From: Hysterium pulicare CBS 123377 | Lineage: Eukaryota; Ascomycota; Dothideomycetes; Hysteriales; Hysteriaceae | Length of the DNA: 26,461 nt | Reading direction: 5' to 3' | NCBI GenBank assembly: GCA_000467715.1 | Contig: AJFK01000292.1 | Location: 1-26,461 of the forward strand | In this document: piece after piece, positions 564 to 25,668 of the stretch | Layout: the number at the start of each line of letters is the position of its first letter | Numbering within the stretch: the first letter of the stretch is position 1 | Made by a program: the position numbers and the translations under genes | Notes under the pieces: model-generated | Seen by the model: the letters and a program-made list of their open reading frames with translations, nothing else | Databases searched by the model: none | Told to the model about the DNA's origin: nothing

Positions 564-1763
564 ATGGCTGCTCCATATCTCATTGGTTCTCACGCCACCT
601 TGGCCGTTGGTCTTGTCAGTGTATTCGCTGGCTATATCGGCGCCGCTGTCGCCCCCGAGACCCTTATTGAGAGATTAATATGGCCTCAACGAGCCTACAA
701 CGGAACCACAGCAGGTCAGATTCTGAACCTCGCCTTCTTTTTACCCTCTGGTGGTCCCCTATATCGAGTGGCTCTCAAGACTCTGGACACCTTTTTCACC
801 AATTCACTTCACAAGGGGAACGAACAAGGCCACATGCTGGGTACGGCTTTCTTTCCAGATACAGGTTTGAAGTATAAAGCATACACCAGCAGTGGACCGA
901 TTGCAGAAAAAGAATACATCCGGAATGGCATCTTAGTCAGAGCTCTTCGTGCTATGCCTACTTTACCAGGGCGCCGACTTGATCCGTCTACAGCCCGATT
1001 GCGTCAGAAGATTACTGTCAACCATTTGAGGCTTTCCAGCTTCGAAAACATTTCGCCCAAAGATGCTATTACTATGGATGCCGGCGATGTTACTGCGACA
1101 ACGATGCTAGGAATCATCGCTACCGAGATTCCAGCCATATTGGTGGCGTCTTACGTTGCCATCGCCCATCACTCTGCATTTGGATTCCTCTGGATGATTC
1201 CGCTTGCTGTCAAGGTTTGGGCAGCCCTGACTGCAGTCCCACGAGAAGATCTTGTAGTGCCCAACGAGAAGGTGAAATCCATCATAGACGACCCGGCCTC
1301 TACGACGAAGGTTGAAGTGCATATACCCGGAGAGGGATTTCAAGTCATCGAGGGACCAGAGGAGCTCGTCCTTCAATTTTTCCGTCATTACGGCCATCCT
1401 ATTCGGTGCAGATGGAGGGAGATCAGCCAAATGCTCAGCGTGGCTATCATGGGATTCTACTTCCCAGCGGCAACGGTCTGTTCAATCCTGTACATGACAA
1501 GCGATGTCCAGGTGACTTGGACTGTTTATCAAGTCTACTTGATCGGAGCGATGCTCATTGCTCGTTACGGTGGCGGACATCTTTGGGCAACGACGGAGGC
1601 AACTCTAGCTCATTCGTTCTCGCAGTTGGAGAATCAAGGAAAAGATGGTGTGGTCGTCTTGCGCAATCGATCTGGCGAAATGATTGGAGCCCGCTTGAAG
1701 CGAACATCACACTGCAGCTATTCCGAAGGCAAAGCTCAAGTTCAGCGAATCACTTCAGCTTGA
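564..1763 (+). CDS. Multi-pass membrane protein, unrecognised fungal family (copy 1)
   Basis: A 399-residue intronless ORF starting at ATG 564, with a pyrimidine-rich leader and a weak TATTTAAT box near 490. About five hydrophobic segments are visible by eye: residues 7-29, 180-202, 205-224, 288-311 and 318-335. The soluble part between the first and second holds GGPLYRVAL (63-71), GHMLGTAFF (89-97) and EKEYIRNG (115-122). A second conserved block is VLQFFRHYGHP (269-279), just before segment 4. A third is RYGGGHLWATTE (334-345), just after segment 5. All these blocks recur in the paralogue at 6557-7861, so the gene is real and constrained. No catalytic motif is recognised. A family A HET gene follows on the same strand 523 bp downstream. 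The function is unknown; location in a membrane is inferred from hydrophobicity. Confidence 0.85.
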   Translation: MAAPYLIGSHATLAVGLVSVFAGYIGAAVAPETLIERLIWPQRAYNGTTAGQILNLAFFLPSGGPLYRVALKTLDTFFTNSLHKGNEQGHMLGTAFFPDTGLKYKAYTSSGPIAEKEYIRNGILVRALRAMPTLPGRRLDPSTARLRQKITVNHLRLSSFENISPKDAITMDAGDVTATTMLGIIATEIPAILVASYVAIAHHSAFGFLWMIPLAVKVWAALTAVPREDLVVPNEKVKSIIDDPASTTKVEVHIPGEGFQVIEGPEELVLQFFRHYGHPIRCRWREISQMLSVAIMGFYFPAATVCSILYMTSDVQVTWTVYQVYLIGAMLIARYGGGHLWATTEATLAHSFSQLENQGKDGVVVLRNRSGEMIGARLKRTSHCSYSEGKAQVQRITSA

Positions 1764-2286
1764 GTGTTTTAATCAACGATTACGCACTTGTTCGTTTTAT
1801 GGCCATAATTTTTAGCTTAGGTGATCTTACCAGGCTTATCGGGGCCTTGAAGTATGGTCGATGACTGTAAAACTGCTCATTCTATTTCTTGGACGATGGT
1901 TTTGTTCCACTATCTATCGGACTTATAGTATTTTCATGTCAGGTCGATGAAGGGAATCGGATAATAGGGGCTCATCAGTATACGACTGTCCACTTAGTTA
2001 AACACTTTACATAAGTCATTAACATTTAAAGTTAAGCGCTTGAATACTCGCTCTGAAAGTAGGTATGCATAAAGCAATAATACACAACTGAAACGTGAGC
2101 TTCTCTAAGTCCTCATATTATCATTGGTTGCGCTACACTCGGTGTTCGGTCGATACTGAATAGATGGTACATACATGCATGAGTCACGTGGAATCTTGTC
2201 CTGCTGCCTCCAAGGGCCAAGGCTGCCTTTCCCGCACACGAAGTCTTGGGAAGCGACATATTTCCCTGACGCTCTAACATATCTCC
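1764..2286. other. Intergenic spacer between membrane protein and HET gene
   Basis: This 523-bp stretch holds no convincing gene. Minus-strand open stretches here are short and overlap the 5' end of the HET gene. It should contain the 3' end of the membrane-protein transcript and the promoter of the HET gene, but no clear TATA box or polyadenylation signal stands out. Confidence 0.5.
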
Positions 2287-4713
2287 ATGACACTATTGAT
2301 AATGTCCGAAATTCCTGAAACTTGGGCACTCGGTGCCATCGCGCAACTACTTGAACCATGTCCTTCTGAAGTTGATGCTGAGGCTTCAGACTCCATCTCT
2401 ACTCGAGGGCTTCGACATTGGTATCGTCTCAACTACCACGTCATACAAGGCAAAACCCTCCGGGATAAGACGACAGCAATGTCTCTCGAGCAAAAACGCT
2501 CCTATGATCTCCTTCATGAGTGGTGGATTGCTGCATATCAAGACCCTGCTTTTTCTTTGGCCGAAATTCTTAAGCTTCTTAATTCCTGCAGTGATATAGT
2601 CAAGCCCGACGTAGCTACGGATAAGAAGGATACAGAATGGGACTTCTTGTACTCGCATCTGAGGTTGAGGCGATGGCCTGCAGGAGACATCTCTGAGCCA
2701 AATCCAAGGCTGAGCACCAAGAGTCTTAATCACCACTACCATGAAAGAATGCAGTCCTTGTTCAAGTGTGAGTTTCTTTTCGACTCGTGCTACGCTCCGT
2801 CTGCCGAGACAGATCGAAATTTCAAAACACGACGGGCTGCGAGGCAGGTAGCCGCAACATACGCATACTGCCAGCAACTAGCCTGGAAACTTTATATTGA
2901 GTACAAGGAAAAGATTAACGTTCAACACGAACCATCGAATACAACTTTCAATGCTGAATTTGATACTATGCAAGACAAAAGCAGACCTGTCATTCAACAT
3001 GAATCCAGCCAATATCTGTCGCATGGCCCCATTCTGAGAGCTTGTCCTTGGCTTGATGGAGATATCGACGAGTTAGGCAACTTACCCTACTATCTCTGGG
3101 ACGTAAAGCGATGCCAAACTGTAAAAACCGCACATCTCGAACCTTTTCCAAGATATGTCACCGTAAGCCATACATGGGGTCGATGGGTGAAAGACAGGAA
3201 GAACCCCATATCAGTGCCAGGAGTACCATGGAAGGTCCCACGAAATACACGATTCAACGTTAGAGATCTCCCCAAGATTCTATCCAATGTTCCTGGTCAG
3301 ACTCCATATGTTTGGCTTGATCTTGTATGCATTCCGCAAGATGGCTCGGCAATCGGAGCACAAGAAATCGCCCGCCAGGCAAAGATCTTTCAAGGAGCCA
3401 CTCATGCCGTCGCATGGTTAAACGAAGTTGAAAATTTTGAAGGCCTGGCCGCAATTATCAACTGGCAGGTGCTTCACCTTCTTGAGGTCCAGAATGAAGA
3501 AGACAAAAAGATTCGCGATGCATGTATGATTGCAGCATGGTCTCGAATTGAGGGGAAACCGAGTGGCCTCCTTCAACCAAGAACTGGAGCACTCTGCTGG
3601 GAGAACATCGGACTCAATCCTTGGTTCACCTCATTATGGACTTTACAGGAAGCCTGCTTGAGGCCAGATATGTGGCTGTGTGGGAAAGATTGGAGCTATC
3701 TCACATGTGATGGCATTCTGCCTCTTCCTCTTAGTGGTTTCGTAGCCGTATTCGAAAGTTATTTGGCAGGAGATCGAGACCGGGGTAAAGTTCCTCTTGA
3801 GCTCGATCCTACAAAGCAGAGCCATGTTGCTCTCTTCGAGCTCATGCACTGGCGATTCAGTACTGCATTGGACAAACTTCTAGATTTGGATCGGGTAGCG
3901 ATACTATCTTTGGGGGACCGCCGAGAGTGTTCAGAACGGCGCGCCGAAGCGATCATGTCAGCTCTCGGGGTAACACGATGGTACATAAATGCGCTTGATG
4001 GGACTGATCACAATTCAGAGAGCCTTCTGAAGCTAGAGGAGAATCTTGTTCTAGGAAAATACCCACTCGAGTTCGTCAACGAGCTTTGCCGCCAGATCCC
4101 GGGGGAATTCTTTGGCGCCCTGCACAAACTCGATATCGATCTCTCTTTAGGCGAGACCATGCCAGAGGCTCCTCAGACTGGCACAATGCTGCCATTTAGT
4201 AGTAAGGCATCATACTATGCCGATGCAAGTGTATTCAGGCAGAGGAAAATCCCCTCATCCACTCACGAGTCCGTCCTTTCTTGGTCAGTGGAGGCCGACG
4301 GAAGAGTTCTAATTACAAAAGCATGCATAATAAGCTCACCAGAGATGTCACGGAACCACAATGCTGCAATTGTTCCGGGTCATTTGATTGGAGTCTTCAA
4401 AGAATCGCCGATTGCACCACTACCAACCGGCTTACAATCTACGGAAGGGGTAGACTTCAGTGATCCAAGTTGGTTGAATCTTCACGTGTGGATCCGAAAT
4501 CAGCCCCAGGACAGTTATGCTGTTCTGACCGAGTACCGCCTCCTCCGGAGAAGTGATGGTGACCTGAGTTTAAGTGTCGTTCAGGGTACGGGGATAATTT
4601 TGGTACGTTCTCACGCTGGGCTGCTCTTCAAGAAATGCCATTTTATGGTTCATGACGAGACGCCATCTATTGACTTACTGAAGTCGGAAGAGGTTAACTG
4701 GAGGGTTGGATAA
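2287..4713 (+). CDS. HET domain protein, family A (808 aa)
   Basis: An 808-residue ORF from ATG 2287; an in-frame ATG at 2302 is an alternative start. The N-terminal region (1-250) has no recognised domain. CPWL (253-256) and LPYYLWDVK (266-274) lead into a full HET domain at about 289-461. Its motifs are YVTVSHTWGRW (290-300), VWLDLVCIPQD (342-352), EIARQAKIF (360-368), AVAWLNEV (374-381) and PWFTSLWTLQEACLRPD (445-461). Downstream is LGDRRECSERRAEAIM (542-557), shared with the 713-aa HET protein at 18459 and with the decayed copy at 21089-23037. HET domains act in heterokaryon incompatibility, driving cell death after non-self contact. The gene is intronless, which is common for HET genes. 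It sits directly downstream of membrane-protein copy 1 on the same strand. The recognition partner is unknown. Confidence 0.93.
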   Translation: MTLLIMSEIPETWALGAIAQLLEPCPSEVDAEASDSISTRGLRHWYRLNYHVIQGKTLRDKTTAMSLEQKRSYDLLHEWWIAAYQDPAFSLAEILKLLNSCSDIVKPDVATDKKDTEWDFLYSHLRLRRWPAGDISEPNPRLSTKSLNHHYHERMQSLFKCEFLFDSCYAPSAETDRNFKTRRAARQVAATYAYCQQLAWKLYIEYKEKINVQHEPSNTTFNAEFDTMQDKSRPVIQHESSQYLSHGPILRACPWLDGDIDELGNLPYYLWDVKRCQTVKTAHLEPFPRYVTVSHTWGRWVKDRKNPISVPGVPWKVPRNTRFNVRDLPKILSNVPGQTPYVWLDLVCIPQDGSAIGAQEIARQAKIFQGATHAVAWLNEVENFEGLAAIINWQVLHLLEVQNEEDKKIRDACMIAAWSRIEGKPSGLLQPRTGALCWENIGLNPWFTSLWTLQEACLRPDMWLCGKDWSYLTCDGILPLPLSGFVAVFESYLAGDRDRGKVPLELDPTKQSHVALFELMHWRFSTALDKLLDLDRVAILSLGDRRECSERRAEAIMSALGVTRWYINALDGTDHNSESLLKLEENLVLGKYPLEFVNELCRQIPGEFFGALHKLDIDLSLGETMPEAPQTGTMLPFSSKASYYADASVFRQRKIPSSTHESVLSWSVEADGRVLITKACIISSPEMSRNHNAAIVPGHLIGVFKESPIAPLPTGLQSTEGVDFSDPSWLNLHVWIRNQPQDSYAVLTEYRLLRRSDGDLSLSVVQGTGIILVRSHAGLLFKKCHFMVHDETPSIDLLKSEEVNWRVG

Positions 4714-6556
4714 TGTCTCTTTCAAAACATGCCCAGCCGGAGTTTCATGAATCGAGAAGGTGCAAACTCTTCTTTAAGGTACAGCTATTGAATTGCACGG
4801 TTTTATTAAAAGCTGTACTGCAAGGCGAGAAGATCGAAAAGAATGTATGGAGTCAACAACTTAATGGAACCTATCACCTCTAGCCCAACAGGCTTTTGTG
4901 CCAAACTATTCAGTGTCCCCATGAGTACGCGATATGCTGTTCCCAATGCGATGTCCATTGCTCTCTCCGACTAAGATTACTCCTCAAAAATGAGGGCTAC
5001 ACGTCTGATCCTCAATGACCCTAGAGCTAATACATGATTATGGTCTCGTGCGAATTTCTGAGTCATTCAATATGCAAGGCTGTGCTGCTCAGCTCCAGAC
5101 TAGATACCACACCGGCGGCCCCAACTGCTCTACTCCGGTTTCACCATTGATAACAGAGTTTTTATTCGGTTGTACAGCGTCTAGTCAGATATGATGCGTC
5201 CTTCTGAGATGCTCGCCATTCGGACCAAGCTGTGTGTATTATTCGCTCGCTAGTCCCTTTGAAGGGTATCGAATTCGTAAATATATTCGTCATTGTATTC
5301 CGGCCACCGATTCCGGCCACCGTCGACCCGACGAAGGCCCGCTTCGTCCAATTCTTGGCTCTTAATTTGAGACTATATCTACCCAAGGTATACGATATGG
5401 CAATAATGGCATGGTGTTTGGGCGGTCGGATGCGTACTCAATTGTCATAAGAGGAGTAGATCGCACCAGGCGACCATTGTAAGGATAGCTATTCGGGCAG
5501 CCAAAGAAGGCGCCGGTGTCAAGCACTGATTCCAGGTGGTGGGGGCGCATTCTCGTTCGGGATAAGAATATGTAGAGTTTTGGTCTTCTTCTGCAAAGAA
5601 GATGTTGCGGGACATCGCTTTCTCGTCCTCGGGTGGTACAAATTCTCAGCCTGGGGCGGCTATCCTCGGGGGTGGTCATCGAGAGTCTTTTTGATCCATG
5701 ACAAGGTCTATATCAACTCTTGAACGGCCGGGTAGGACTCGAAGATTTGTAATAGAGATCTCCTTGAGCATGATGATTACCTTGAGGAGCATCATCCAAA
5801 TACATCAAGGCTGAAGACTGCTTCTACTTGGTTGCTAGCGAATAGCTTTTGGACACAGCCCCAGTGCTTCCGAGAGAGGTAGGGCTTGAAAATGAGGGTG
5901 CTGCAACATGATGACCAAGGCGACTGAGTCTGCCTTGCCATCAGCATCCAAAACCATATTGTGCGCTTGCATCATCGTATCATTGTGCATATTCATCGGT
6001 GCCATATTGATTATGGATGGATGCGGAGAACGAGGTGGAAGATATACGATCCCTGTAGCAAGTCTTGACTATGTAGTCGTAGTATTGGTGGGGTAATTTA
6101 TTCCGCGGGTTTGACCTTCAAAGAAGAAGAGAACTCATCTCCGGACTATTATTTGGCCTAGGTCGCGGTTGCATGAAGCTGCAGGAAATGATGCAGATGG
6201 TCGCTGAAGTCATTGGTCCACGTCAGTCTGCACGTTGCAGCTCTGCACGCAGCTGTTGATCCTGCAGGATGCGATAGCGAATACAAGAGCAGAGAGGAAA
6301 GGCAACGGATGTGCCGGTCATGCAAAGAAGAAGGCAAGATGGCTGTGCAAAGAAGAGATAGAAAGACTAGTCCCATGCTATACTTTCGAAGAGCCTCAGG
6401 GAGGCTTACAAACTGGCGCAATGCATTTAAAGTAGGGAAGCTGCAGCTCGCACTTCGAATCCACCACCAAATTCCGCTAGTCATATTTTCCGGTCTGTTC
6501 ATACCATTTGTCACTTTCGTCCTGGCGTTGAAGAAGCTTGTGATGTTACTTCAAGC
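4714..6556. other. Gene-poor stretch between the two membrane/HET units
   Basis: Over 1.8 kb no ORF has convincing protein-like content. The longest open stretches (5362-5679 and 6158-6514 minus, 6213-6560 plus) are about 105-118 codons, overlap on opposite strands, carry no HET or membrane-family motif and have odd composition. The stretch holds a 13-bp tandem duplication (5297-5322) and a 16-nt match to a universally conserved 18S rRNA segment (5021-5036). It could be a decayed gene region or simply long UTRs plus promoter. I see no transposon ends. Confidence 0.5.
5297..5322. repeat. 13-bp direct tandem duplication
   Basis: The 13-bp unit ATTCCGGCCACCG occurs twice with no spacer (5297-5309 and 5310-5322). 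It is GC-rich within a less GC-rich surround. It is probably a small replication-slippage duplication; no function is evident. Confidence 0.8.
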
Positions 6557-7861
6557 ATGAGCTCGCAGACTTCAAATGCCCTTAATGCAATTGGAACGGT
6601 GATTGGTTATGTTGGAACTGAGGTAGCAACGGATGATTTCTTCGACCGCCTGCTGTGGCCTCGCCGCTCATTCAACGGATTCAACCTATCGCATGCGCCA
6701 AAAATGGCATTGCTTATGCCCATGGGAGGCCCACTCCATAAAGCCGCGCTCTCAACGCTAGATGATTTTTATAAACACGGTCTTTACCAGCGTCATCAGC
6801 TGGGACATATGTTAGGGACGGCATTCTTCCGTGATTCAAAGCTAAGGTACAAGGTCTACGGAGAGGACGGCATCCCAGAGAAAGAATTCGTCCGGAATGG
6901 ACTATGGATGCGAGCGGTGATGAGGGTACCGTTCCCGTTACTAAAGGTGCGGAATAAGAATGCTTCAAATGAAAATGGGGACGTACCAAAACCAGTTCAA
7001 AAAATCCGCCAGAAAATTTGCGTGAGCCATCTAAATTTATCCCAACTTTCAAGCAGCGACAAGCTGTCAGAATTCGTTACAATCCGAGATGATGCCTGTC
7101 GACCTACTCCTCGCACGTACTTCGCAATATGCATCACGGAACTATCTGGTCTTGCTGTCGCATTGATTGTGGCAATTGTTTGGAGATCGGGCTTCGCAGT
7201 ACTGTGGTTTCTTCCCTTGGTGCTGAAATTGATCAGCGCAGCATTCACAGTAGACCGAGAAGAGCTTCAGGTTCCAAATGCTCGCCCTGCTCAACCAATA
7301 GGCCTTGGAGAAGACGTTAAACTCTTCGAAGCCAAGAACCCAACCGGTGGATTTGTAGTAATCGAAGGGAGCGAGTCCGTTGTCCTTCAATTCTTCCGAC
7401 ATTACGGACATCCTGTCCGATCCAAAAGCCGAGAGACCATCCAAATCGGACTGGTGGTATTTTTCAGCCTTCTCTTTCCTGTCGGCCTAGTCTGCTCGAC
7501 ACTTTGGATGACACCGGTTTTGCAGAAGATGTGGGTTGGTTACCAGCTGTATGCCACACTCGCCATGTATGTATATCGCTACGCTGGCGGACATCTTTGG
7601 GCAACGACGGAAGAACAGATCGCGCAGGTATTTAGAGATAGCGAAAATGAGGACGCGGATGGCTCTACAATCATCAAATATCTAGGAAGGAACGGGGCGA
7701 TAGGTGCAAAACTGGTACGAACGTGTCATGATAGGTATGCGGAAGCAGTGGTGCACAAGGAGCAGTTAACATTGAGGAAAAATCAACCGGCGGCTCCAGG
7801 CGCCACACCTGATAGCGACTGCTGTTCTAAAAGCTCTGTAGATAGTCCGCCGGAGGAGTAG
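6557..7861 (+). CDS. Multi-pass membrane protein, unrecognised fungal family (copy 2)
   Basis: A 434-residue intronless ORF, paralogous to the gene at 564-1763 along nearly its whole length, at roughly 40-50% identity by eye. Shared blocks are RLLWPRRSFNG (31-41), GGPLHKAAL (57-65), GHMLGTAFF (83-91), IPEKEFVRNG (106-115), QKICVSHLNLS (152-162), VVLQFFRHYGHPVR (275-288) and GGHLWATTE (344-352). Hydrophobic segments are clear at about 187-209, 212-230, 295-317 and 325-343. The N-terminal segment (8-23) is weaker than in copy 1. The protein has an extra low-complexity tail (about 405-434) rich in Pro, Ser and acidic residues. A HET gene follows 553 bp downstream on the same strand, so the arrangement matches the first unit, but this HET gene is family B. 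Function unknown. Confidence 0.85.
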   Translation: MSSQTSNALNAIGTVIGYVGTEVATDDFFDRLLWPRRSFNGFNLSHAPKMALLMPMGGPLHKAALSTLDDFYKHGLYQRHQLGHMLGTAFFRDSKLRYKVYGEDGIPEKEFVRNGLWMRAVMRVPFPLLKVRNKNASNENGDVPKPVQKIRQKICVSHLNLSQLSSSDKLSEFVTIRDDACRPTPRTYFAICITELSGLAVALIVAIVWRSGFAVLWFLPLVLKLISAAFTVDREELQVPNARPAQPIGLGEDVKLFEAKNPTGGFVVIEGSESVVLQFFRHYGHPVRSKSRETIQIGLVVFFSLLFPVGLVCSTLWMTPVLQKMWVGYQLYATLAMYVYRYAGGHLWATTEEQIAQVFRDSENEDADGSTIIKYLGRNGAIGAKLVRTCHDRYAEAVVHKEQLTLRKNQPAAPGATPDSDCCSKSSVDSPPEE

Positions 7862-8414
7862 TGAGATGGGAGATGATCTAGAGAATAGCATACTTTATAA
7901 TGGGAGAGAAACGCGTTGAGAGGTGTAATGCCTGTGGCAGGAATCGAGTGCAGCGCTAAGACCATCTTGTTGGAAGTAGCTTAGCCGGTGGCCAAAGCGG
8001 ACCTCAGCCTTCTTCTTTTCTTTAATCTTCAGAGTCACTTTCAACACACCTAGCTCTGCAACTCGCCAGCCTGCCAGGCTGTAACACCACGTACACAAGG
8101 CCTTGAAATCAAAGCATCTTCGTCACCACCCTCTTTTCCTCGGATTTCCATTGAACGTGAAGAAACGTACATTGTCCCTTTCAAAGGAGATTTCTGGGGC
8201 ATTGGATCCAGCTCGAAAACAGCATAAAATAGAGTCGAGACCAACTAAAATTCTAACGGCATTAAAAGTTGGATCAATTACTTCACTCAATTGAGGTTGG
8301 TCCTTTCACGTTAGCGATTGACTACGTGGGCTTTCTTCAGATATTGAAAACTTCGAAAAGCATTTCAAAATTGCTCGCCGTCAATCGCCGTTTACAATAT
8401 CTCGTTTGCAAACC
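7862..8414. other. Intergenic spacer between membrane protein copy 2 and HET gene
   Basis: This 553-bp stretch has no convincing gene. An A-rich CATAAAATAG stretch near 8223-8232 lies about 190 bp before the HET start and is a weak TATA candidate. Open stretches on both strands are short and unlike any gene in the window. Confidence 0.4.
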
Positions 8415-10259
8415 ATGAACCCTGAAAAGCGCGATCATCCACGGTATAAGTACCCGCCAAACGTCATGCTATACAACAGATTAGCGGAAGAGTGGCCTCT
8501 AAGGCTTCTACACATACCCTCTATGACTTCTTACGAAAGAATGGACAGTTCGTCTTACGGAGGTGTTCAAGCACCTCAATACGCCGTCCTCACATATACC
8601 TGGGGCCGTTTTCGCGCACCTGATGGATTCCCAGCGTTGCCTGTCAAAGGAACGACGTGGCAGATTCCTCCGATAAAAAAAGATTGCTTCTCCGTGGAAA
8701 TGTTTCAGCGCGTCATTGACCATATAGGGGAATCATTTGACTGGATGTGGATCGATATTGCCTGTATCGACCAAGAGAACGAAAACATAAAGATGGGAGA
8801 AGTAAAACGGCAGGTCGGAATATTCCAGAGAGCGCAAGAAGCGTATGCTTGGTTACACACTTTGAGTAGTTCAGATGTACTCAACAGCCTGAATCGCATT
8901 TTCCGTATAGATCATGACACGGCGGAACTCGACACGGACGAAGAGATCACTGCGTATCTTGAATCTTGTATAGATGACGTTCACAAAAGCCTGGTCGCTC
9001 TCCTTGCAGATCCATGGTTTACCTCACTCTGGACACTACAAGAATCTCTGCTACGACGAGACGCCACTATTCTTTGTCACGATGCGAACCCAGTATACCT
9101 CTCCGATGATGAAGAGTCGAAACAAACTGCTCAAATGTCAGTCTCATATTTGCAAACCTGGTGTAAAACCATCTACATAAGACTACATAATGCTTTGGAG
9201 ACCAACCTGCTTTCGGCGAAAGCCAAGGATCGGGCCCGTGAGGCATTGTTCGCCGTTGAGAAAGCGGGACTTCAATATTCAGACTCCAGAAACCCGAACG
9301 TGCAATATGGAGCAGCCCGGTTCAGAGAAACAGAGTATCCACTGGATAGGATCTATGCTATTATGGCCATCTACAACTTCGGAGTGGACGAGTCCGCCAG
9401 TCGACTGACCGAAGGAAGTACGACATTGGACGAATTGGAAGATGAGTTCAGCAGGGCTCTAAACCGGCGTTCTCCCATGGAAGGACAGTGCTTCGTGCAT
9501 TTGGAGCGGTCTCTTAAAAGTTGGAGGATTTCCCAAATATCTGCGGTGCCCGGTCGCTTGCAAGGGTTGGATGGAACGGGGTATGTGCATTTCAGTTCCA
9601 TTGTTCCCCAAGCCGATGGAACGGCATCGGTGAAAGGAAAAGCGTGTCCACTTCATGTGTTTTGGGCCTACTGGTCGGCAATGCGGCAGCGAGGCAGTAC
9701 GTTCTGGAATATGCGGCTAGAGTATCCACTAACCATCGCATACGATTACACTGTACATGATCTTTTGCCTCCCATTGCAGGCATAAATCCTGAAAGTGTC
9801 ATAGTGGAAGAAACCGACACATCGAATCGCATCCTCACACAACTACAAATGAAAGATGAGTTTCACGTTAGCCAAGCCCTCATCAACACCTTCCCACCAG
9901 AGGACCTATACGTTGTTCACCTTGGATACCAAGACCGTTCTATTCCATCTACAGTCAAAGTGTTCATTGATGAAAGCTTTGATCCTTCCAACGCCGCTCA
10001 CCTTAAGGTGGATTGTCCACAGATTTTCCGGTTGGATCCTACGGAGAACTTCGCTGTCAATCAAAAATGTATTATTGCAGATGGAGATACAAAGTGGGGC
10101 TTGAAGTGGGAGAAAGCGGTCGCGGGAAGAAAGCAATCACTGGGGCTTTTAGTATTCCGCTATCCAGATGGCCGATGGAAGCGGATCGGTATCTGTCTTT
10201 GGAATGACGATAATATAAGATCTCACGATCTGGCAAACTGGGAGATACAGCTTTATTGA
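8415..10259 (+). CDS. HET domain protein, family B (614 aa)
   Basis: ATG at 8415 is the first in-frame ATG; the open frame extends three codons further up to a TTG, which is unlikely to be used. The protein opens with WPLRLLHIPSMTSYE (27-41), the family B signature. HET motifs follow: YAVLTYTWGRF (56-66), MWIDIACIDQ (111-120), QVGIFQRAQEAYAWL (133-147) and DPWFTSLWTLQESLLRRD (199-216). Further on come YPLDRIYAIMAIYNF and a CFVH...WRIS block, both shared with the other family B members. The C-terminus has the shared module SLGLLVFRYPDGRWKRIGIC, ending in LW. No intron is needed. It lies downstream of membrane-protein copy 2 on the same strand. The inferred role is in incompatibility-type cell death. 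Confidence 0.92.
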   Translation: MNPEKRDHPRYKYPPNVMLYNRLAEEWPLRLLHIPSMTSYERMDSSSYGGVQAPQYAVLTYTWGRFRAPDGFPALPVKGTTWQIPPIKKDCFSVEMFQRVIDHIGESFDWMWIDIACIDQENENIKMGEVKRQVGIFQRAQEAYAWLHTLSSSDVLNSLNRIFRIDHDTAELDTDEEITAYLESCIDDVHKSLVALLADPWFTSLWTLQESLLRRDATILCHDANPVYLSDDEESKQTAQMSVSYLQTWCKTIYIRLHNALETNLLSAKAKDRAREALFAVEKAGLQYSDSRNPNVQYGAARFRETEYPLDRIYAIMAIYNFGVDESASRLTEGSTTLDELEDEFSRALNRRSPMEGQCFVHLERSLKSWRISQISAVPGRLQGLDGTGYVHFSSIVPQADGTASVKGKACPLHVFWAYWSAMRQRGSTFWNMRLEYPLTIAYDYTVHDLLPPIAGINPESVIVEETDTSNRILTQLQMKDEFHVSQALINTFPPEDLYVVHLGYQDRSIPSTVKVFIDESFDPSNAAHLKVDCPQIFRLDPTENFAVNQKCIIADGDTKWGLKWEKAVAGRKQSLGLLVFRYPDGRWKRIGICLWNDDNIRSHDLANWEIQLY

Positions 10260-10537: not shown

Positions 10538-12874
10538 TTAGCCAAACAACAGCTCGAGTTGTTCCCAGTGCATACTTTCACCCGCCATCGTGTCCTTTTG
10601 GGAGTCATCTGATTCATCTATCAGACTTGGAGAGTCCCATGAGACGATTCCCAATCGCGCCCACCACGGTCCTATACGGTCGTCGAAACATTCCATTACG
10701 ATGAGACCAAACCGTATAGCACTCGATGCCCATCCACCTTCTTCTACAAAGGAGAACTCATCTGAATATCCTACACGTGGATCGGTGATCTCGAGTTCAC
10801 CCAACATAAGGATCTTGACGCACGCAGCTAAGTCGTGGAATCTGGAGAGCATCATCGATGCGAGCTCAAGTTGCTGCTTGGTCCGCGGGACTTCAGACAG
10901 CGACCATGGCGTTTGAAGCGAACTTCTTAAAAGTACGACTCCTCGATCAAGAGCAATTTGAACAGTGCTCCAGGCATCGCTATGGCTAGTCCGACTTTTC
11001 TCACGATCCACTGCTTCCCAGGCATTGAAAAAAGTCCTCAAAATTGCAGGCCTTGCCAATGAAATGCCCATATATAACATTATTTGCTTGTTTGACAGAC
11101 AACTTGGTCGAAAGCATATCGATATGCCCCAACAGCTCCCCCCGCTCGGATCGTGGCAAGTTCCGCACCAGGGCCGGAATGGTAGAAGAGTTGCTGACAC
11201 GCCATGCCTGCCGGCCAGTGACAAGCTCCTCATGGACGTGTAATTGGCTGAATATTGGAAACTTCTCTATCAAACTTACTCCCAGTTGAACTTCCAGCTC
11301 TGGCAGAGTCCAGTCGTATGAAGGATTTGCCCCCGGTCCCGACTTACCAAGGCGGAAGTCGAACACTTGCATGATACCGTAAACGCGGTCAAGTTCTCTC
11401 TTTGTTGTGCGGTATTTAGCAAGTGTGTAAAGGGTAACGGGGTTATGGGAAGCGAGCGCTTCTAGACCAGCTCGGTTGATTACTCTGAGGAGCGCGATTT
11501 CTTCTATAGACCTATCTAGTCCTGCTGCCGCTCTCATTTGAACGCTCGCAGAGCAAGCCTGAAAGAGGATATTACAGAATTTTAGAAGAGTACTTAGTTG
11601 AAAATCGATGCCGTCCTCGGTAATTATCTGGCCATCTTGATCCAAAAACCGGGCATCGGAACGAAGAAATGCTTCTTGGAGCGTCCAGAGTGAGGTGAAC
11701 CAGGGAGCTTTGGTTAAGTTGGCTACGCTTGAGCAAATTTCATGGAGTATAGACTCGTGTCCATGTACTTTTTGGGAAATTTGAACAGTATCAGGAATGG
11801 ACCCAAAGCCCATACCATGTTGGTTTCGTAGTTGAATAAGCTCGGGTAAGACTGCTCTAGCCATATCCGCTATTTTCTGAACTGTGCCTAGAATACCTTG
11901 AATCGAATTCCAAGGCCTGATATCGAGGAAATCTCTCCCAGCGAGCCATATGAAGGCCCTCTCAGCGCCTCGAAAAATCTTGGCCTGGCGACCTATCTCC
12001 TGGGCACCCGAGACATCATCCTTGTTTTGATTGATACAGGCCACATCAAGCCAGAGGAACTCAAGCTCGCAATTGTCATCTCGGAGAGCAACACACTCTT
12101 GAATAGCATGCTCAAATTGTGAAACTCTGAATAAAGCCTCATCGACACTGGGGGTCTCCCACTGAATTCCCCGGACGTTGAGACGCTCCGCTGGGGTCTG
12201 TTCAACACTTTCAAGCATCCATCTTCCCCAAGTATATGAGATTACAGCATATTTAGGGGAAAGATAAGGTCCATATTGATTCTCGGGTTGCCATTCGTAA
12301 GATGTCATCGTCGGAACATGCAAAAGTCTCCTCGGCCAATTGCCTATCTCGTCTTCATCTTTACTATTTGCGGCATAAGTCAATAACTACTTACTGCTTA
12401 GTCCTGGGGTACTGACTGGCCTGGACTTAAGTATTCCTTCCACAGCTGTCTGTAGTTCTTGCCACTGTTTCCGAAGTTCGTAGCTGGACGACCATGAGGA
12501 TCTGGCACCCTATTCTCCCACTTATCAACATCGCGGGAAAGACCAAGGTCCGTCCAAACGCTCTGCCACATTGAATGGGAATCATTGAAGTCCTTCTGGA
12601 GATGCTCGTAAAGCTCGTTATCATCATCGGGTACCTCGTTTGGTAGCTTCCCGTCTGGAAGGTGTGAAAGAGGGGTTGGATCAAACAACTTATTCATATC
12701 ATGAAGTCGCCCAGCTCGCCACATAGCATGGGCAACTGTATGTGGCTTCTCGTCACTCGATTTTTCCCGATCTTCATGAGGATTTAGAAGCGGAAAGGTC
12801 AGCGAGTCCTTGCTTGGTCCCCCAGCAGAGACATGACCATCGTCTGCGGCTTCACCAGGCGCGCGGCTCGCCAT
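10538..12874 (-). CDS. HET domain protein, family B, spliced and frame-interrupted
   Basis: On the minus strand the HET frame (from about 12363 down) reads NWPRRLLHVPTMTSYEW, YAVISYTWGRW, FLWLDVACINQ, EIGRQAKIFRGA and APWFTSLWTLQEAFLRSD, followed by RVYGIMQVF. This frame has no ATG ahead of the conserved start. A 53-nt intron (12364-12416) joins it in frame to an upstream 152-codon exon beginning at ATG 12874, which gives a complete N-terminus. Downstream, the frame meets a stop at 11001, but family B sequence (FFNAWEAVDREK, then VKILMLGE and WWARLGIVSW) continues in another frame to a stop at 10538. The change of frame falls at a run of six A (11028-11033). It is either an assembly/sequencing error or a true inactivating change. 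The closest relative by eye is the gene at 23081-24808. Confidence 0.75.
12364..12416 (-). other. Predicted 53-nt spliceosomal intron
   Basis: On the minus strand the segment starts GTCAGT and ends AATAG. It contains TTGAC about 20 nt before the 3' end, close to the fungal branch-site consensus. Removing it links codon phase 2 of the upstream exon to the HET frame with no stop between. The consensus-like GTAAGT 21 nt further in cannot serve as donor, because the upstream frame has already stopped and the intron would be only about 31 nt. The intron is inferred, not proven. Confidence 0.6.
12417..12874 (-). other. Upstream exon encoding a 152-residue N-terminal extension
   Basis: ATG 12874 opens a frame beginning MASRAPGEAADDGHVSAGG. 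A disordered, charged first third is followed by a region rich in Trp, Asp and aromatic residues (MWRAGRLHDMNKLF, MWQSVWTDLGL, NYRQLWKEYL). This looks like real coding sequence. No counterpart lies in front of the close paralogue at 23081-24808. If the downstream intron were not spliced, the frame would end at 12398 and give a separate 158-residue protein. That alternative leaves the HET frame without an initiator, so the exon reading is preferred. No known domain is recognised. Confidence 0.6.
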
Positions 12875-13352: not shown

Positions 13353-15359
13353 ATGTCACAGTTCTCACTGCCTCATTCGTTTGGCCCTGCTCCACCACCT
13401 CCTCCTGCTCCCCCTAACCCTTGGGCAGGCCGGACTCTTTCCGGCAACGAAGCCTTGATATCTGGCTTGATATGGCCACACAGGCTTCTTCATGTCGACT
13501 CGATGACCTCCTATGTCAAAGAAGGTCGAAATGTTTACAATGGTGTAGAAGCACCACAATATAACGTTCTAAGCTACACATGGGGATATTACAAGGACAC
13601 GGCCCTCAAAGAAACCCCATTGTTGGTCCATGGAGTTGACTGGCCAATCCCTCCTATTCGGAAAGATCATTTTACAGCCTCTACTTTCGAAGAGGTAATA
13701 AAGCGTGCTGCCAAAGGCGTTGACCACCGCTGCGAATGGCTCTGGGTTGATATAGCTTGCATCCCACAAGTGCATGAGGAAGAGACAGACGAAGCAACTA
13801 TTTTACGCGGTCAGGAGATTGGGAATCAAGTCGAAATTTTCCATCGAGCGCAGGAAGCTTTCGCTTGGTTATCTTCCCTCAAAAAGTCGGAGCTTTCTGA
13901 AGAAAACAAGCCGCTAATTACAATCGATGACATCTTCGCCTATACGCGATCAGGTCGACGTGGATTTCAAAGCCCTGAAACTGCAGCCGAATACTTGGAC
14001 AGTTTGGATGCGGATTCGCGGTCGCTTGAGAAGTGGATGAACATGTTCCTTTATCATCCATGGCTCGAATCCCTCTGGACTCTCCAAGAGATGGTCTTAC
14101 GACCAGATGCTTTCATTCTCTTCGATGACGGGTTACTTCAGTTGTACAAAGATGCGCGGCCTTGGAACTTCATCCACGTCAAAAACGATATATTCTACTG
14201 GCGGGAAATGCTCCACGACAGAGTTACTAGAAAATCCTGGGATAACGCTGAAGCGATGACTTTTATGCCGGCTGCCAATAGTGTGCATGGCATTAAACAG
14301 TACACAGGCTACTCTGCGAGGATCCAGCAACGTCTAGAAGAGTTGTTGACCCTGCAGGAGTTGAAAGGAATGGACGCCTTAAGTATCACAATTCCGCATA
14401 CCGTGTACTCCATCGCACAACGCCGCCGTGTGACGAGGCTTGAAGATCGTATCTACGGCATCGTCCAGACCTACGGCATGAGCTGCAATCCATTCCCACC
14501 TGGGAAGGATGATGCTTCGAGGCTTCGCGCACTGGAGGACGAATTCGGGACGATGCTAGTTGGGAAATCTCCCGTGCTGTCACAAGTTTTTATTCACAGT
14601 TCAGCGGATGAACGTCCTCGAAGAAGTTGGCTGATTACACAGAATTGCAAAGTTGATGACATGTTTTGGCAGTCGTTCTCTTCTGAGAAAAAAGTGGAAA
14701 AACTGTTCAAGACCCTGGAGATCTTGAAAACAATCGACGACGACGGTACAGAAAATGTTGATCTTAGCTTTGTGGGCGAGGCATGGTATCTTGATTCCTT
14801 TGTGGAATCATCATCAGCATCATCAACAACAGCTCCAACAACTTTTGACCAGCAGCTCTTATTCACATCATATCGTCCAGGAGTTCCCCATCTTTATCGA
14901 GGCCTGATGCTAGATCATCACATATCGAAAGCCGTCCTAGGCCACGTGGTCGATTACTTTGACAGCTATGAGAGCATGTCGCGAGCCGTACAGCATCTAC
15001 AGCAACACTATTATCATCGCATTAGGTATAACAGTAGAAGCATGTCTAGTGGCAGCTCCAGCAGCAAGCCCGGAAACCAGAATGATTCCCTGACAATAAA
15101 GGTCGCGATTCTTGGATCCGGATCACCTCCCAATTTACCCGTTGTGGATCACGTCGGTCTCGTTCTTGCTCCTTCTTGTGCTCCCGGATCCAGATCTAAC
15201 AGCACCAAACAAACCCAAGGAAGCCCTAGAAATCTGAAAAGCATGGCGTGGGAGCGTATAGGCCTCATGAGATGGACTGAGATATACGGTGGCACCAACT
15301 TGAAGATGCCGCACTACCATCTCCCACCGCATCACAACTTCCAGTGTGTCATAATATAA
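13353..15359 (+). CDS. HET domain protein, family B (668 aa)
   Basis: A 668-residue intronless ORF from ATG 13353. A short Pro-rich lead (PAPPPPPAPPNPW, 12-24) precedes the family B opening IWPHRLLHVDSMTSY (40-54). HET motifs are YNVLSYTWGYY (70-80), LWVDIACIPQ (130-139), EIGNQVEIFHRAQEAFAWL (155-173) and HPWLESLWTLQEMVLRPD. Later blocks shared with the family are RLEDRIYGIVQTYGM and SPVLSQVFIH. The C-terminal part has a Ser-rich insert (about 561-571) and then the family module IKVAILGSG...HVGLVLAP...MAWERIGLMRW. It also has a long His/Pro-rich tail (MPHYHLPPHHNFQ) missing from its relatives. It is divergent with the gene at 12874 and convergent with the one ending at 15615. The inferred role is in incompatibility-type cell death. 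Confidence 0.93.
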   Translation: MSQFSLPHSFGPAPPPPPAPPNPWAGRTLSGNEALISGLIWPHRLLHVDSMTSYVKEGRNVYNGVEAPQYNVLSYTWGYYKDTALKETPLLVHGVDWPIPPIRKDHFTASTFEEVIKRAAKGVDHRCEWLWVDIACIPQVHEEETDEATILRGQEIGNQVEIFHRAQEAFAWLSSLKKSELSEENKPLITIDDIFAYTRSGRRGFQSPETAAEYLDSLDADSRSLEKWMNMFLYHPWLESLWTLQEMVLRPDAFILFDDGLLQLYKDARPWNFIHVKNDIFYWREMLHDRVTRKSWDNAEAMTFMPAANSVHGIKQYTGYSARIQQRLEELLTLQELKGMDALSITIPHTVYSIAQRRRVTRLEDRIYGIVQTYGMSCNPFPPGKDDASRLRALEDEFGTMLVGKSPVLSQVFIHSSADERPRRSWLITQNCKVDDMFWQSFSSEKKVEKLFKTLEILKTIDDDGTENVDLSFVGEAWYLDSFVESSSASSTTAPTTFDQQLLFTSYRPGVPHLYRGLMLDHHISKAVLGHVVDYFDSYESMSRAVQHLQQHYYHRIRYNSRSMSSGSSSSKPGNQNDSLTIKVAILGSGSPPNLPVVDHVGLVLAPSCAPGSRSNSTKQTQGSPRNLKSMAWERIGLMRWTEIYGGTNLKMPHYHLPPHHNFQCVII

Positions 15360-17782: not shown

Positions 17783-18070
17783 CAACGGTCGCCGTTCTCA
17801 CTTCGTCTCAACTCATGCTTCTCTGTCGCCTTGTTACGCCTTATGAAACTGCCTAAAGCTTTAAGGCCCTACGGTAATCAAAGATAAGAATGTTGTCCGA
17901 ATCTGGCAACTTTAACTAGATCGCTCCACCTCACTATGAAGAGTTTGGTAAAACTCAACCACGCGTAAGTGGTGATTATATCTAAAGCTCTCGTTTATGG
18001 TTGATCTCATTGAGTGACGTATCGGTGTTTCTTTGATTTCGCGTTGAGTTTTCATTGACTTTACTATGAT

Positions 18071-23080: not shown

Positions 23081-24808
23081 TTATAGGATTCGACCGAAAA
23101 GGCCGCAATGCAGTTTCCATTCGGAGCCATTACCCAGAAGAAATTTCTTCTGGGCCGCTTCTAACGCTGGCTGTTGATTTTCTAGATATGTATTGTCCCA
23201 TTGGATGATCCCTAAGCGAGTCCACATCCCAGTTTCTCGCAGCAGTAAGATGATCCCAAGCATCTGACCAAGCTCATAAGTCGACGAAGAGCCTAGTAAA
23301 AGCACCACGATACTACGCTCCGAGTATTCCTGAGAAAGCCAATCTACAAAACGCCTTTGTGGGTCGTTTCGGGGAATACAGTTATGCCCATCGCCTTGAC
23401 TCCATGGCGAGTAAGAAAGCTCCTCTGCTACATCGGGCGCAATGGTGAAAGGTTTCTGCTGAAAGACTCCGCTATGAAAGCCTGATTCGGGGAAGGGTGA
23501 TGGTTTCAACAGCCAAATGTTTTGAATCACATGCTCAAGCGGGGAGATCGGCCCTTGGAACCAAACCCCCCGATATTCCTCGTTTTCTTCCACCCAGAAT
23601 GAGCATCGTGGTCGAGGATCCTCGAAAGGCTCGAAGTCGTATCCACCTCCCCCATCACTTATGTTTGGTGGTACTACCGAACATGGATTCGGTCTCCAAC
23701 GTTTGTCATGGGGTACATGTTGTGTAAAGACGTGTAGTTGGCTGATCATAGGATATTTGATGAGCAGCTCTTCACCAAACTGATTCTCCAGTTCGGATAC
23801 GGTAAAGTGGCGATTTGCTTGTGCGGAACTTGCTGAATTGCCTAATCGAGCCTTAAATATCTGTTGGATACCATATACTCTGTCTTCTGGTCGAGACGTT
23901 TGTCTCTTTTGGCTTGCCTCGTAGGAAGATAGTGGATTCAAGGAGATTAATGATCTTAGACCTCCTTGAGAGATCGCAGACAACAAAGCTTTACTTGTGT
24001 ATAGTGTAAGCTCGTATGCTCGTCTTTGCTCGCATAAAAAAGCCCATTGGTCGCTCCAAGTAGCTAAATCCATGATTGTAGGGTTGATGATGTCGTCAGA
24101 AGCGTCTTCCGATTGGCGAACCGATGATGGGAAGTAAACAAGATCCGCATTTTTAGATAGAAAGAATGCGTCATGCCGAAGGAAAGCTTCTTGCAGAGTC
24201 CATAAAGACGAAAACCATGGGTCAGATAGCAAGTCGGTCATGCTTTTTAACACATTAGAATCAGCAAACTTCGAGATGGCAGCCAAGTTAGGAAATAAGG
24301 CAATTTCCCCCATCATGTCTTGGATATATGGTTGGGAATGAGTAGTCAGCCATACAAATACCTTCTTCGCTCCTTTGAAAATAGCTGCTTGTCGGCCTAT
24401 CTCCGCTGCCGATGTGGGATCGGCCTTCTGTTGGTTTATACACGCCACGTCGAGCCATAAAAACTCGATAGTGAAATGATCTGGCCAGGTATTCGCGTAT
24501 TGAAGAGGCCGAACTCTTACCGCAGCCCGTATGGTCTTTTCGAATTGCTCGGTTGTGAAATGAATAGGATCCACCCTTGGGATAGGCCAAGTTACTCCTT
24601 TAATTTTGAGCGCGGAGACTTCGGGCTTGCTCTCGTCCTCCAGCTTCCAGCGGCCCCAGGTATACGTGATCGCATTATATTCTGGTTCGTGAAAAGGGCC
24701 GTATTGATTGCCGGGCTCCCATTCGTAAGACGTGAGCGTAGGGATGTGAAGAAGCCTGCGTGGCCAGTTCCCTAAAAGTTCTTCTTGTTCGATCAGAGTG
24801 TTGGTCAT
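23081..24808 (-). CDS. HET domain protein, family B (575 aa)
   Basis: ATG at 24808 is chosen; the open frame runs four codons further up to a TTG. After a short acidic lead comes NWPRRLLHIPTLTSYEWEPG (14-33), nearly the same as in the gene at 10538-12874. HET motifs follow: YNAITYTWGRW (44-54), FLWLDVACINQ (116-126), EIGRQAAIFKGAKKVFVWL (136-154) and DPWFSSLWTLQEAFLRHD (196-213). Later come RPEDRVYGIQQIFKARLG and YPMISQLHVF. The C-terminal module reads SIVVLLLGSS, LGIILLLRETGMWTRLGIIQ and W, and the protein ends at 23081. It is intronless and intact. It is upstream of and in the same orientation as the decayed family A copy. The inferred role is in incompatibility-type cell death. Confidence 0.93.
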   Translation of the reverse strand: MTNTLIEQEELLGNWPRRLLHIPTLTSYEWEPGNQYGPFHEPEYNAITYTWGRWKLEDESKPEVSALKIKGVTWPIPRVDPIHFTTEQFEKTIRAAVRVRPLQYANTWPDHFTIEFLWLDVACINQQKADPTSAAEIGRQAAIFKGAKKVFVWLTTHSQPYIQDMMGEIALFPNLAAISKFADSNVLKSMTDLLSDPWFSSLWTLQEAFLRHDAFFLSKNADLVYFPSSVRQSEDASDDIINPTIMDLATWSDQWAFLCEQRRAYELTLYTSKALLSAISQGGLRSLISLNPLSSYEASQKRQTSRPEDRVYGIQQIFKARLGNSASSAQANRHFTVSELENQFGEELLIKYPMISQLHVFTQHVPHDKRWRPNPCSVVPPNISDGGGGYDFEPFEDPRPRCSFWVEENEEYRGVWFQGPISPLEHVIQNIWLLKPSPFPESGFHSGVFQQKPFTIAPDVAEELSYSPWSQGDGHNCIPRNDPQRRFVDWLSQEYSERSIVVLLLGSSSTYELGQMLGIILLLRETGMWTRLGIIQWDNTYLENQQPALEAAQKKFLLGNGSEWKLHCGLFGRIL

Positions 24809-25075: not shown

Positions 25076-25281
25076 CCGAATTGGGATTTGGACGGCTTCC
25101 GCCCAGCTAAACCTCGTCTTTTTGGGAAGAGACGCCGGACTTTAGAACTGGATCGTAGTTCCATATTAGATTGCTACAGCTTTCCGCAAAAGTACTTTGA
25201 CTGGACATATCACGTATCCCATGAGGATGCACGTCGAGCTTTGTGAAAGACTACTACAGACTTTTGCTGGCCGGGGTTTGA

Positions 25282-25668
25282 TCATATTGCTCTTGGGGTG
25301 AGGTTTATGAGGATTTTCGTCGATGGGCATTCGGCGTACTGCTTTTGAAGGGAAAAGATGAAGCAGAGTGGGTTCATATTGGTATCTTTCTCTGGTTTCC
25401 TAACCCTTTGGGTGATTCGAGCGATCCTCGTGTCACGCAACTCTCGAACCCCGATTACCAGCTCGTCTGAGAACCTTCGGAGCCAGTCGACAAGCAAGCC
25501 ATGCAATTCTTTCCGATCTTACAAGTCGTCGGCTTTCGTAAGATCGTACTCCCGCTTCCACTGTTTACGCTCGTCAAGGGTAGATTTAAGATCGTCATAG
25601 TGCTTTTCGAGGTTGTTAAGAGCGTTTTGGAGATTTTGGGACGCGGTAGTGAATTCGGTTGGGAGCAT
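25282..25668 (-). pseudogene. Possible remnant of a coiled-coil protein gene
   Basis: On the minus strand an ATG at 25668 starts a 49-residue frame with helical, heptad-like composition (NLQNALNNLEKHYDDLKSTL, KQWKREYDL), ending in TAA at 25519. The same frame continues after the stop with equally protein-like sequence (LLVDWLRRFSDELVIGVREL) as far as 25282. The TAA sits inside a GTAAGA that could be an intron donor, with TTCTCAG 50 nt on as acceptor, but that splice leads quickly to another stop. I read this as a decayed gene fragment of unknown family. Confidence 0.35.

Follow-up and report, generated by a model that had tools for sequence, protein, structure and literature searches.

Two paralogous genes for a predicted membrane protein stand on the same contig of Hysterium pulicare CBS 123377, each directly upstream of a gene with a HET domain; do these pairs reflect a partnership, or the crowding of HET genes around them? 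The window, the whole stretch of DNA analysed, is the entire contig C229 (26,461 bases) of an assembly of 37.2 Mb in 596 contigs. The membrane proteins are called here M1 and M2 and their relatives the M family, and the HET proteins fall into types A and B. An old association of M with HET genes is well supported, and their co-location in other fungi suggests that the two proteins work together as an undescribed fungal self-defence pair. Our preferred reading, to which we give a little short of an even chance, is that the M family has long accompanied a divergent branch of HET cell-death proteins in fungal genomes and is probably also their functional partner, and that the HET protein guards M. 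It builds on direct observations, which are the gene pairs, the family, the co-location elsewhere and a confidently predicted fold. The two pairs are composed as follows.

564-1763, + strand: M1, membrane protein of the HET-linked family, 399 amino acids, assigned from its open reading frame (ORF), homologue search and structural model; no Pfam match at an expect value (E) <=1
2287-4713, + strand: HET A1, 808 amino acids, HET domain at residues 290-455 preceded by 289 amino acids
6557-7861, + strand: M2, paralogue of M1, 434 amino acids, sister of Lophiotrema nucula P0016; no Pfam match at E<=1
8415-10259, + strand: HET B1, 614 amino acids, HET domain near the N-terminus (residues 56-210); model with a predicted local distance difference test score (pLDDT) of 88.4 and six terminal strands

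The four ORFs are intact from ATG to stop and all lie on the + strand. The HET gene follows its M gene at about 0.5 kb, with gaps of 523 (M1-HET) and 553 bases (M2-HET), and the paired layout of order, strand and spacing noticed in the first-pass annotation is real. The same annotation took the membrane proteins for paralogues, which is borne out by 40% identity over 407 aligned columns (E 4e-100). Its division of the HET partners into two families is valid outside the HET domain (PF06985, 54.5 bits in HET A1 and 53.9 in HET B1 for a cut-off of 22.5) and breaks down within it, the alignment of the two proteins at E<=1e-3 being confined to this domain (28% over 184 amino acids). The idea of an exchanged effector fails, since the presumed death domain is retained in both partners and it is the remaining protein that differs; the exchanged part is more likely to be the one that recognises something. 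The intergenic DNA of the two pairs has no significant similarity (best E 0.5 or worse), so the likeness in spacing looks like a coincidence and not the mark of a copied module. Two pairs are weak evidence on their own, because the 26 kb of C229 hold eight HET loci, of which two are broken or split, and any gene there has HET neighbours. The argument depends thus on other genomes.

M and HET genes on shared contigs of other fungi

Outside this genome, a shared contig was deduced from equal contig size together with the data source, and proximity of the genes from locus tags. The 99 M homologues, found among the 7,999 candidates sharing most words in the protein search, correspond to 98 distinct contigs by size (the longest contig for each). 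They were compared to 240 HET relatives, the best 120 of 712 for type A and the best 120 of 915 for type B (7,998 candidates were scored in the B search). Twelve of the 98 M contigs also bear a listed A or B relative. In a jitter control that shifted HET contig sizes by at most 10%, sharing averaged 0.25 contigs and never exceeded 4 over 20,000 trials. All 12 sharing pairs have a common data source. Sharing is found on none of the 28 contigs below 10 kb, on 8 of 44 between 10 and 200 kb and on 4 of the 26 that exceed 200 kb. On the contigs of intermediate size, 0.73 sharing contigs are expected at the density of A/B-type HET genes, estimated from this genome alone (14 genes, our own count), versus the eight seen.

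Among the matches listed, eight named species have an entry in the M list as well as in a HET list, and six of them have the two genes on one contig: Trematosphaeria (3.8 Mb, a weak case), Lophiotrema (2.1 Mb), Polyplosphaeria (36 kb), Coleophoma cylindrospora (32 kb), Glutinoglossum (43 kb) and Orbilia (4.5 Mb, consecutive tags). These six species span Dothideomycetes, Leotiomycetes, Geoglossomycetes and Orbiliomycetes. M and HET are at most two tags apart in three of the four genomes that have ordered tags and both genes, namely BP6252_14097/14096 in Leotiomycetes, TWF730_005326/005327 in Orbiliomycetes and FGG08_006741/006743 in Geoglossomycetes. The chance of such proximity is about 4 in 10,000 per genome by our own arithmetic, which assumes about 10,000 genes. 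Tags of the Joint Genome Institute type (BDV96DRAFT_, EJ04DRAFT_, BU26DRAFT_) are hints of order only, and Lophiotrema BDV96DRAFT_561299/561298 is such a hint of adjacency.

Sixteen linked HET proteins were compared to those of the window: seven are nearest to A1 and nine to B1, as expected from the way the lists were built. In the B tree, which has 67 rows with HB1-HB5 among them and 12 forks open, the linked B-type proteins are spread over several distinct clades. The midpoint root of the M tree has linked rows on either side, those of Coleophoma, Orbilia and Glutinoglossum being long branches of unsure placement. Because both trees scatter the linked proteins in this manner, M appears to accompany various HET lineages, like the PII-like partner in het-B that is discussed below.

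The M family and the age of its lineages

A genome-wide search with M1 (E<=0.001) gives two M matches, both on C229. The top named homologues of M1 are from Pleosporales (Trematosphaeria, Lophiotrema and Polyplosphaeria), and named homologues of the family occur in many ascomycete genera, among them Trematosphaeria, Aspergillus, Penicillium, Bacidia, Coleophoma, Trichoderma, Orbilia and Trichophaea. Taxonomy was looked up for six species; we take the other genera to belong to Pezizomycotina. Profile scans of viral contigs and genome contigs with the M alignment yielded no locus. Over 100 family members the commonest Pfam match is FA_desaturase, in 4 of 100 with a best E of 0.0037. Seven columns are invariant in the 100-row alignment, whose best-conserved stretch includes the motif QFFRHYGHPIR. 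A literature search, with subscription journals and preprints largely outside its reach, found no paper whose listing points to the family or to an M-HET pair. M is an unannotated, undescribed family of fungal membrane proteins.

M1 was modelled by AlphaFold with a mean pLDDT of 93.3 and a predicted template modelling score (pTM) of 0.91. In the model, residues 3-29 form an N-terminal helix, residues 178-222 and 283-335 each form a helical hairpin, and the intervening segments make up an alpha/beta part. The fold has no convincing match to a PDB chain. A simple hydropathy scan gives three clear peaks centred at residues 190, 216 and 299 and two weak ones at 21 and 311; the firm membrane candidates would thus be the first hairpin, together with the leading helix of the second.

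The M tree was built from 100 rows by a quick method, with supports only from the Shimodaira-Hasegawa-like approximate likelihood-ratio test (SH-aLRT). M2 is sister to Lophiotrema nucula P0016 (support 100). M1 belongs to a clade of 14 rows, also with support 100, that includes Lophiotrema P0005, Trematosphaeria P0001 and Polyplosphaeria P0006. In Lophiotrema both M lineages are on one 2.1 Mb contig that also holds relatives of HET A and HET B. Since M1 and M2 each group with a different Lophiotrema paralogue, their lineages appear to be old and were probably already separate before these genera split. A recent duplication of the two-gene module is ruled out by this grouping and by the dissimilarity of intergenic and upstream DNA.

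HET-rich surroundings and a second HET cluster

Of the HET loci of C229, three belong to type A, where the HET domain begins at residue 290 (A1) or 229 (A2) and A3 is broken, and five belong to type B (start at residues 20-70), of which B2 extends over two frames. PF06985 is above its cut-off in all seven HET ORFs scanned (34.1-54.5 bits), the broken A3 being outside the scan. The loci beyond the two pairs are listed here.

10538-12362, - strand: HET B2, split B-type locus with frames 11001-12308 and 10538-11233; a frameshift or an unrecognised intron
13353-15359, + strand: HET B3, 668 amino acids
15615-17354, - strand: HET B4, 579 amino acids
18459-20600, + strand: HET A2, 713 amino acids
21095-22906, - strand: HET A3, broken A-type locus with matches over more than one frame and with stops
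23081-24808, - strand: HET B5, 575 amino acids

From its translation, the frame 10538-11233 reads as the putative C-terminal part of HET B2. Two stretches are possible remnants of B-type HET genes: 5369-5515 (- strand) has a weak N-terminal match (best E 0.003), and 25150-25500 (+ strand) has, by eye, a C-terminal-like stretch beside stops. A possible orphan gene is the 158-amino-acid ORF at 12398-12874 (- strand), for which no Pfam match exceeds the cut-off and the genome has no other match. A dispersed repeat of roughly 120 bp has a copy at positions 17938-18063; counting this copy, the genome holds at least 41 matches, from the scoring of 40 among 212 candidates.

With 150 of 226 candidates scored, the genome has no fewer than 150 HET matches. 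The two HET proteins of C229 among the matches listed score 57-59 bits and other HETs of the genome up to 126; to judge from such scores, those of C229 seem to belong to a divergent HET branch. Mixed A/B clusters recur in other fungi, where relatives of the two types share seven contigs by size.

A second A/B cluster of this genome occupies 0-16 kb of contig C176. Inside it, locus L041 (2243-3791, - strand) has two ORFs in overlapping frames, the one of 224 amino acids being CorA-like (PF01544, 51.4 bits), which is another membrane protein among HET genes. A gene with a CorA domain is described as a vegetative incompatibility candidate of Morchella importuna (PMC8940278). At 10-30 kb (L042, L043) the cluster borders genes of core type for an MCM helicase, a PHO4 transporter and a Vps54-like protein.

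The pair compared to known systems, its proposed working and its meaning

A HET gene beside an unrelated conserved partner is a known theme, exemplified by het-B and het-c/pin-c. In the het-B system of Podospora anserina, incompatibility arises when a HET protein interacts non-allelically with what the neighbouring partner gene encodes, and the lectin-fold region of BH1 sets allele specificity and presumably recognises that product (PMC10890737). In distant Pezizomycotina, the PII-like partner adjoins HET genes from three or more lineages, with 89 cases (PMC10890737). The likeness to M lies in a conserved non-HET partner next to the HET gene of the pair (Bh/Bp), the partner being constant while the HET lineage varies. 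The het-B partner differs in that it belongs to the PII-like proteins, small trimeric sensors, and is not a membrane protein; M has 399-434 amino acids with hydrophobic segments, and no PII-type family appears in its Pfam matches. BH has moreover a C-terminal lectin fold. The HET B1 model ends in six beta strands (534-613), with no Foldseek match at E<=0.001 and no lectin Pfam match at E<=1.

In het-c/pin-c of Neurospora crassa, the gene of a plasma-membrane protein (PMC2988816) stands next to a HET gene and the pair sets non-self recognition, a likeness to the loci studied here. HET-C is glycine-rich and single-pass, whereas M has several hydrophobic segments and a multi-helix model. The linkage of het-c with pin-c is confined to Neurospora and Sordaria (PMC2988816), while M is linked to HET genes in four classes. 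Polymorphic haplotypes under balancing selection are a trait of het-c/pin-c; one assembly is read here. The Het-C domain, presumably PF07217, has no match in M1 or M2 at E<=1 nor in the 100 family members at E<=0.1. Allorecognition in N. crassa also involves the linked pair cwr-1/cwr-2, one product of which is again a multi-pass membrane protein whose function is unknown. This protein, CWR-2, differs from M in its eight predicted transmembrane regions and its two PF11915 domains, and it is paired with a polysaccharide monooxygenase instead of a HET protein (PMC9550227). PF11915 has no match in 100 M-family proteins at E<=0.1, and no polysaccharide monooxygenase is found in the ten window ORFs scanned, where HET is the sole family above its cut-off. 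M has no HeLo/HELL or gasdermin-like Pfam family and no convincing PDB match, though such folds can escape these searches. New here is the uncharacterised partner family M, which fails the tests for the partners of het-B and het-c/pin-c.

The HET domain is reported to be sufficient for cell death and has been proposed to be a distant relative of TIR (PMC10197012, PMC12881547). The HET B1 model has no PDB sequence match at E<=0.1 and no Foldseek match at E<=0.001, and its best VIA-align score of 7.8, to STAT helical bundles, is in the range that the tool calls uninformative. A TIR-like fold of HET B1 is thus unconfirmed by model comparison, and the kinship with TIR rests on these two papers.

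M is most likely, in our analysis, the membrane-side partner monitored by the variable part of the HET protein, and we infer that the two form a functional pair. M would be held in the membrane by its helical hairpins, perhaps also by the N-terminal helix, and its alpha/beta part with the QFFRHYGHPIR motif would be exposed on one side, probably the cytosolic one. The neighbouring HET protein would contact and monitor M through its variable non-HET part. Alteration of M by a parasite, a toxin or a mismatched allele after hyphal fusion would be the trigger, upon which the TIR-like HET domain would be released and the compartment killed. A receptor/executioner function, to which the first-pass annotation likened the module, is likewise putative.

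Several results weigh against this reading. The annotation's proposal of a HET-linked module survives its own refuting condition, within the reach of contig sizes and tags, through the 12 of 98 contigs, versus 0.25, and the neighbouring tags in three classes. At the density of any HET gene, however, 6.9 of the 44 contigs of 10-200 kb are expected to share, and the eight seen are no excess. The excess is therefore specific to the A/B branch and would vanish if the A/B lists stood for all HETs. Above 200 kb, the 4 sharing contigs of 26 are below expectation under either density. Varicellaria rhodocarpa and Aspergillus cavernicola are in both lists without a shared contig among the matches listed; with the best 120 of 712 and of 915 HET relatives compared, such absences carry little weight. 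The C176 cluster has no M in the genome-wide M1 search, nor when the 99 homologues are compared to 30 of its 39.7 kb; the best stray match (E 0.003, 56 residues) lies inside a PHO4-like ORF. Diplodia intermedia has A and B relatives on one contig (SLS58_008238-008246) with no M among the matches listed, and Xylaria species recur in named HET rows and are absent from the named M rows listed. Since A/B clusters occur without M, it is at most a frequent partner and not an obligatory one. The insertion of M in the membrane is itself predicted, from hydropathy and the model.

The same figures bear on the rivals. M could be an accessory gene that rides along in dynamic HET-rich regions, co-located without function, which the absence of excess at any-HET density, the wealth of HET matches in the genome (at least 150) and the seven contigs shared by A and B relatives themselves would all favour; Neurospora HET genes do cluster with lineage-specific genes near telomeres (PMC10684091). 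Such hitch-hikers are unlikely to recur with the same HET branch across four classes and within two tags in three of four named ordered-tag genomes, and M, with named homologues across many ascomycete genera, is not young, so that we hold this explanation to be unlikely. The roles could also be inverted, M being the executioner, a small channel opened by an output of the HET protein such as a TIR-like nucleotide product, with HET as sensor or activator; we find this quite unlikely. Least probable, and very unlikely to our judgement, is that M is a membrane-held, antitoxin-like inhibitor by which activity of the HET protein is prevented. In favour of such a role, it is a general theme that killers and protectors are tightly linked; against it stand the A/B HETs carried on C176 without M.

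The guarding of M by its HET neighbour, which we continue to prefer, would bear on a large family. HET genes number more than 100 in some species, and in Podospora anserina about 5 of 125 act in allorecognition, the role of the wider family being open (PMC10197012). What a HET protein watches can be approached directly through a partner that is conserved next to it, and if M partners a whole HET branch, the question of HET sensing becomes testable in laboratory strains and fungal innate immunity would gain a membrane-linked arm. It is doubtful, yet conceivable, that M represents an undescribed, Pezizomycotina-wide class of membrane immune sensors with a fold of its own, whose output passes through interchangeable adjacent HET (TIR-like) death proteins, as a fungal counterpart of the membrane receptor/TIR pairs found elsewhere.

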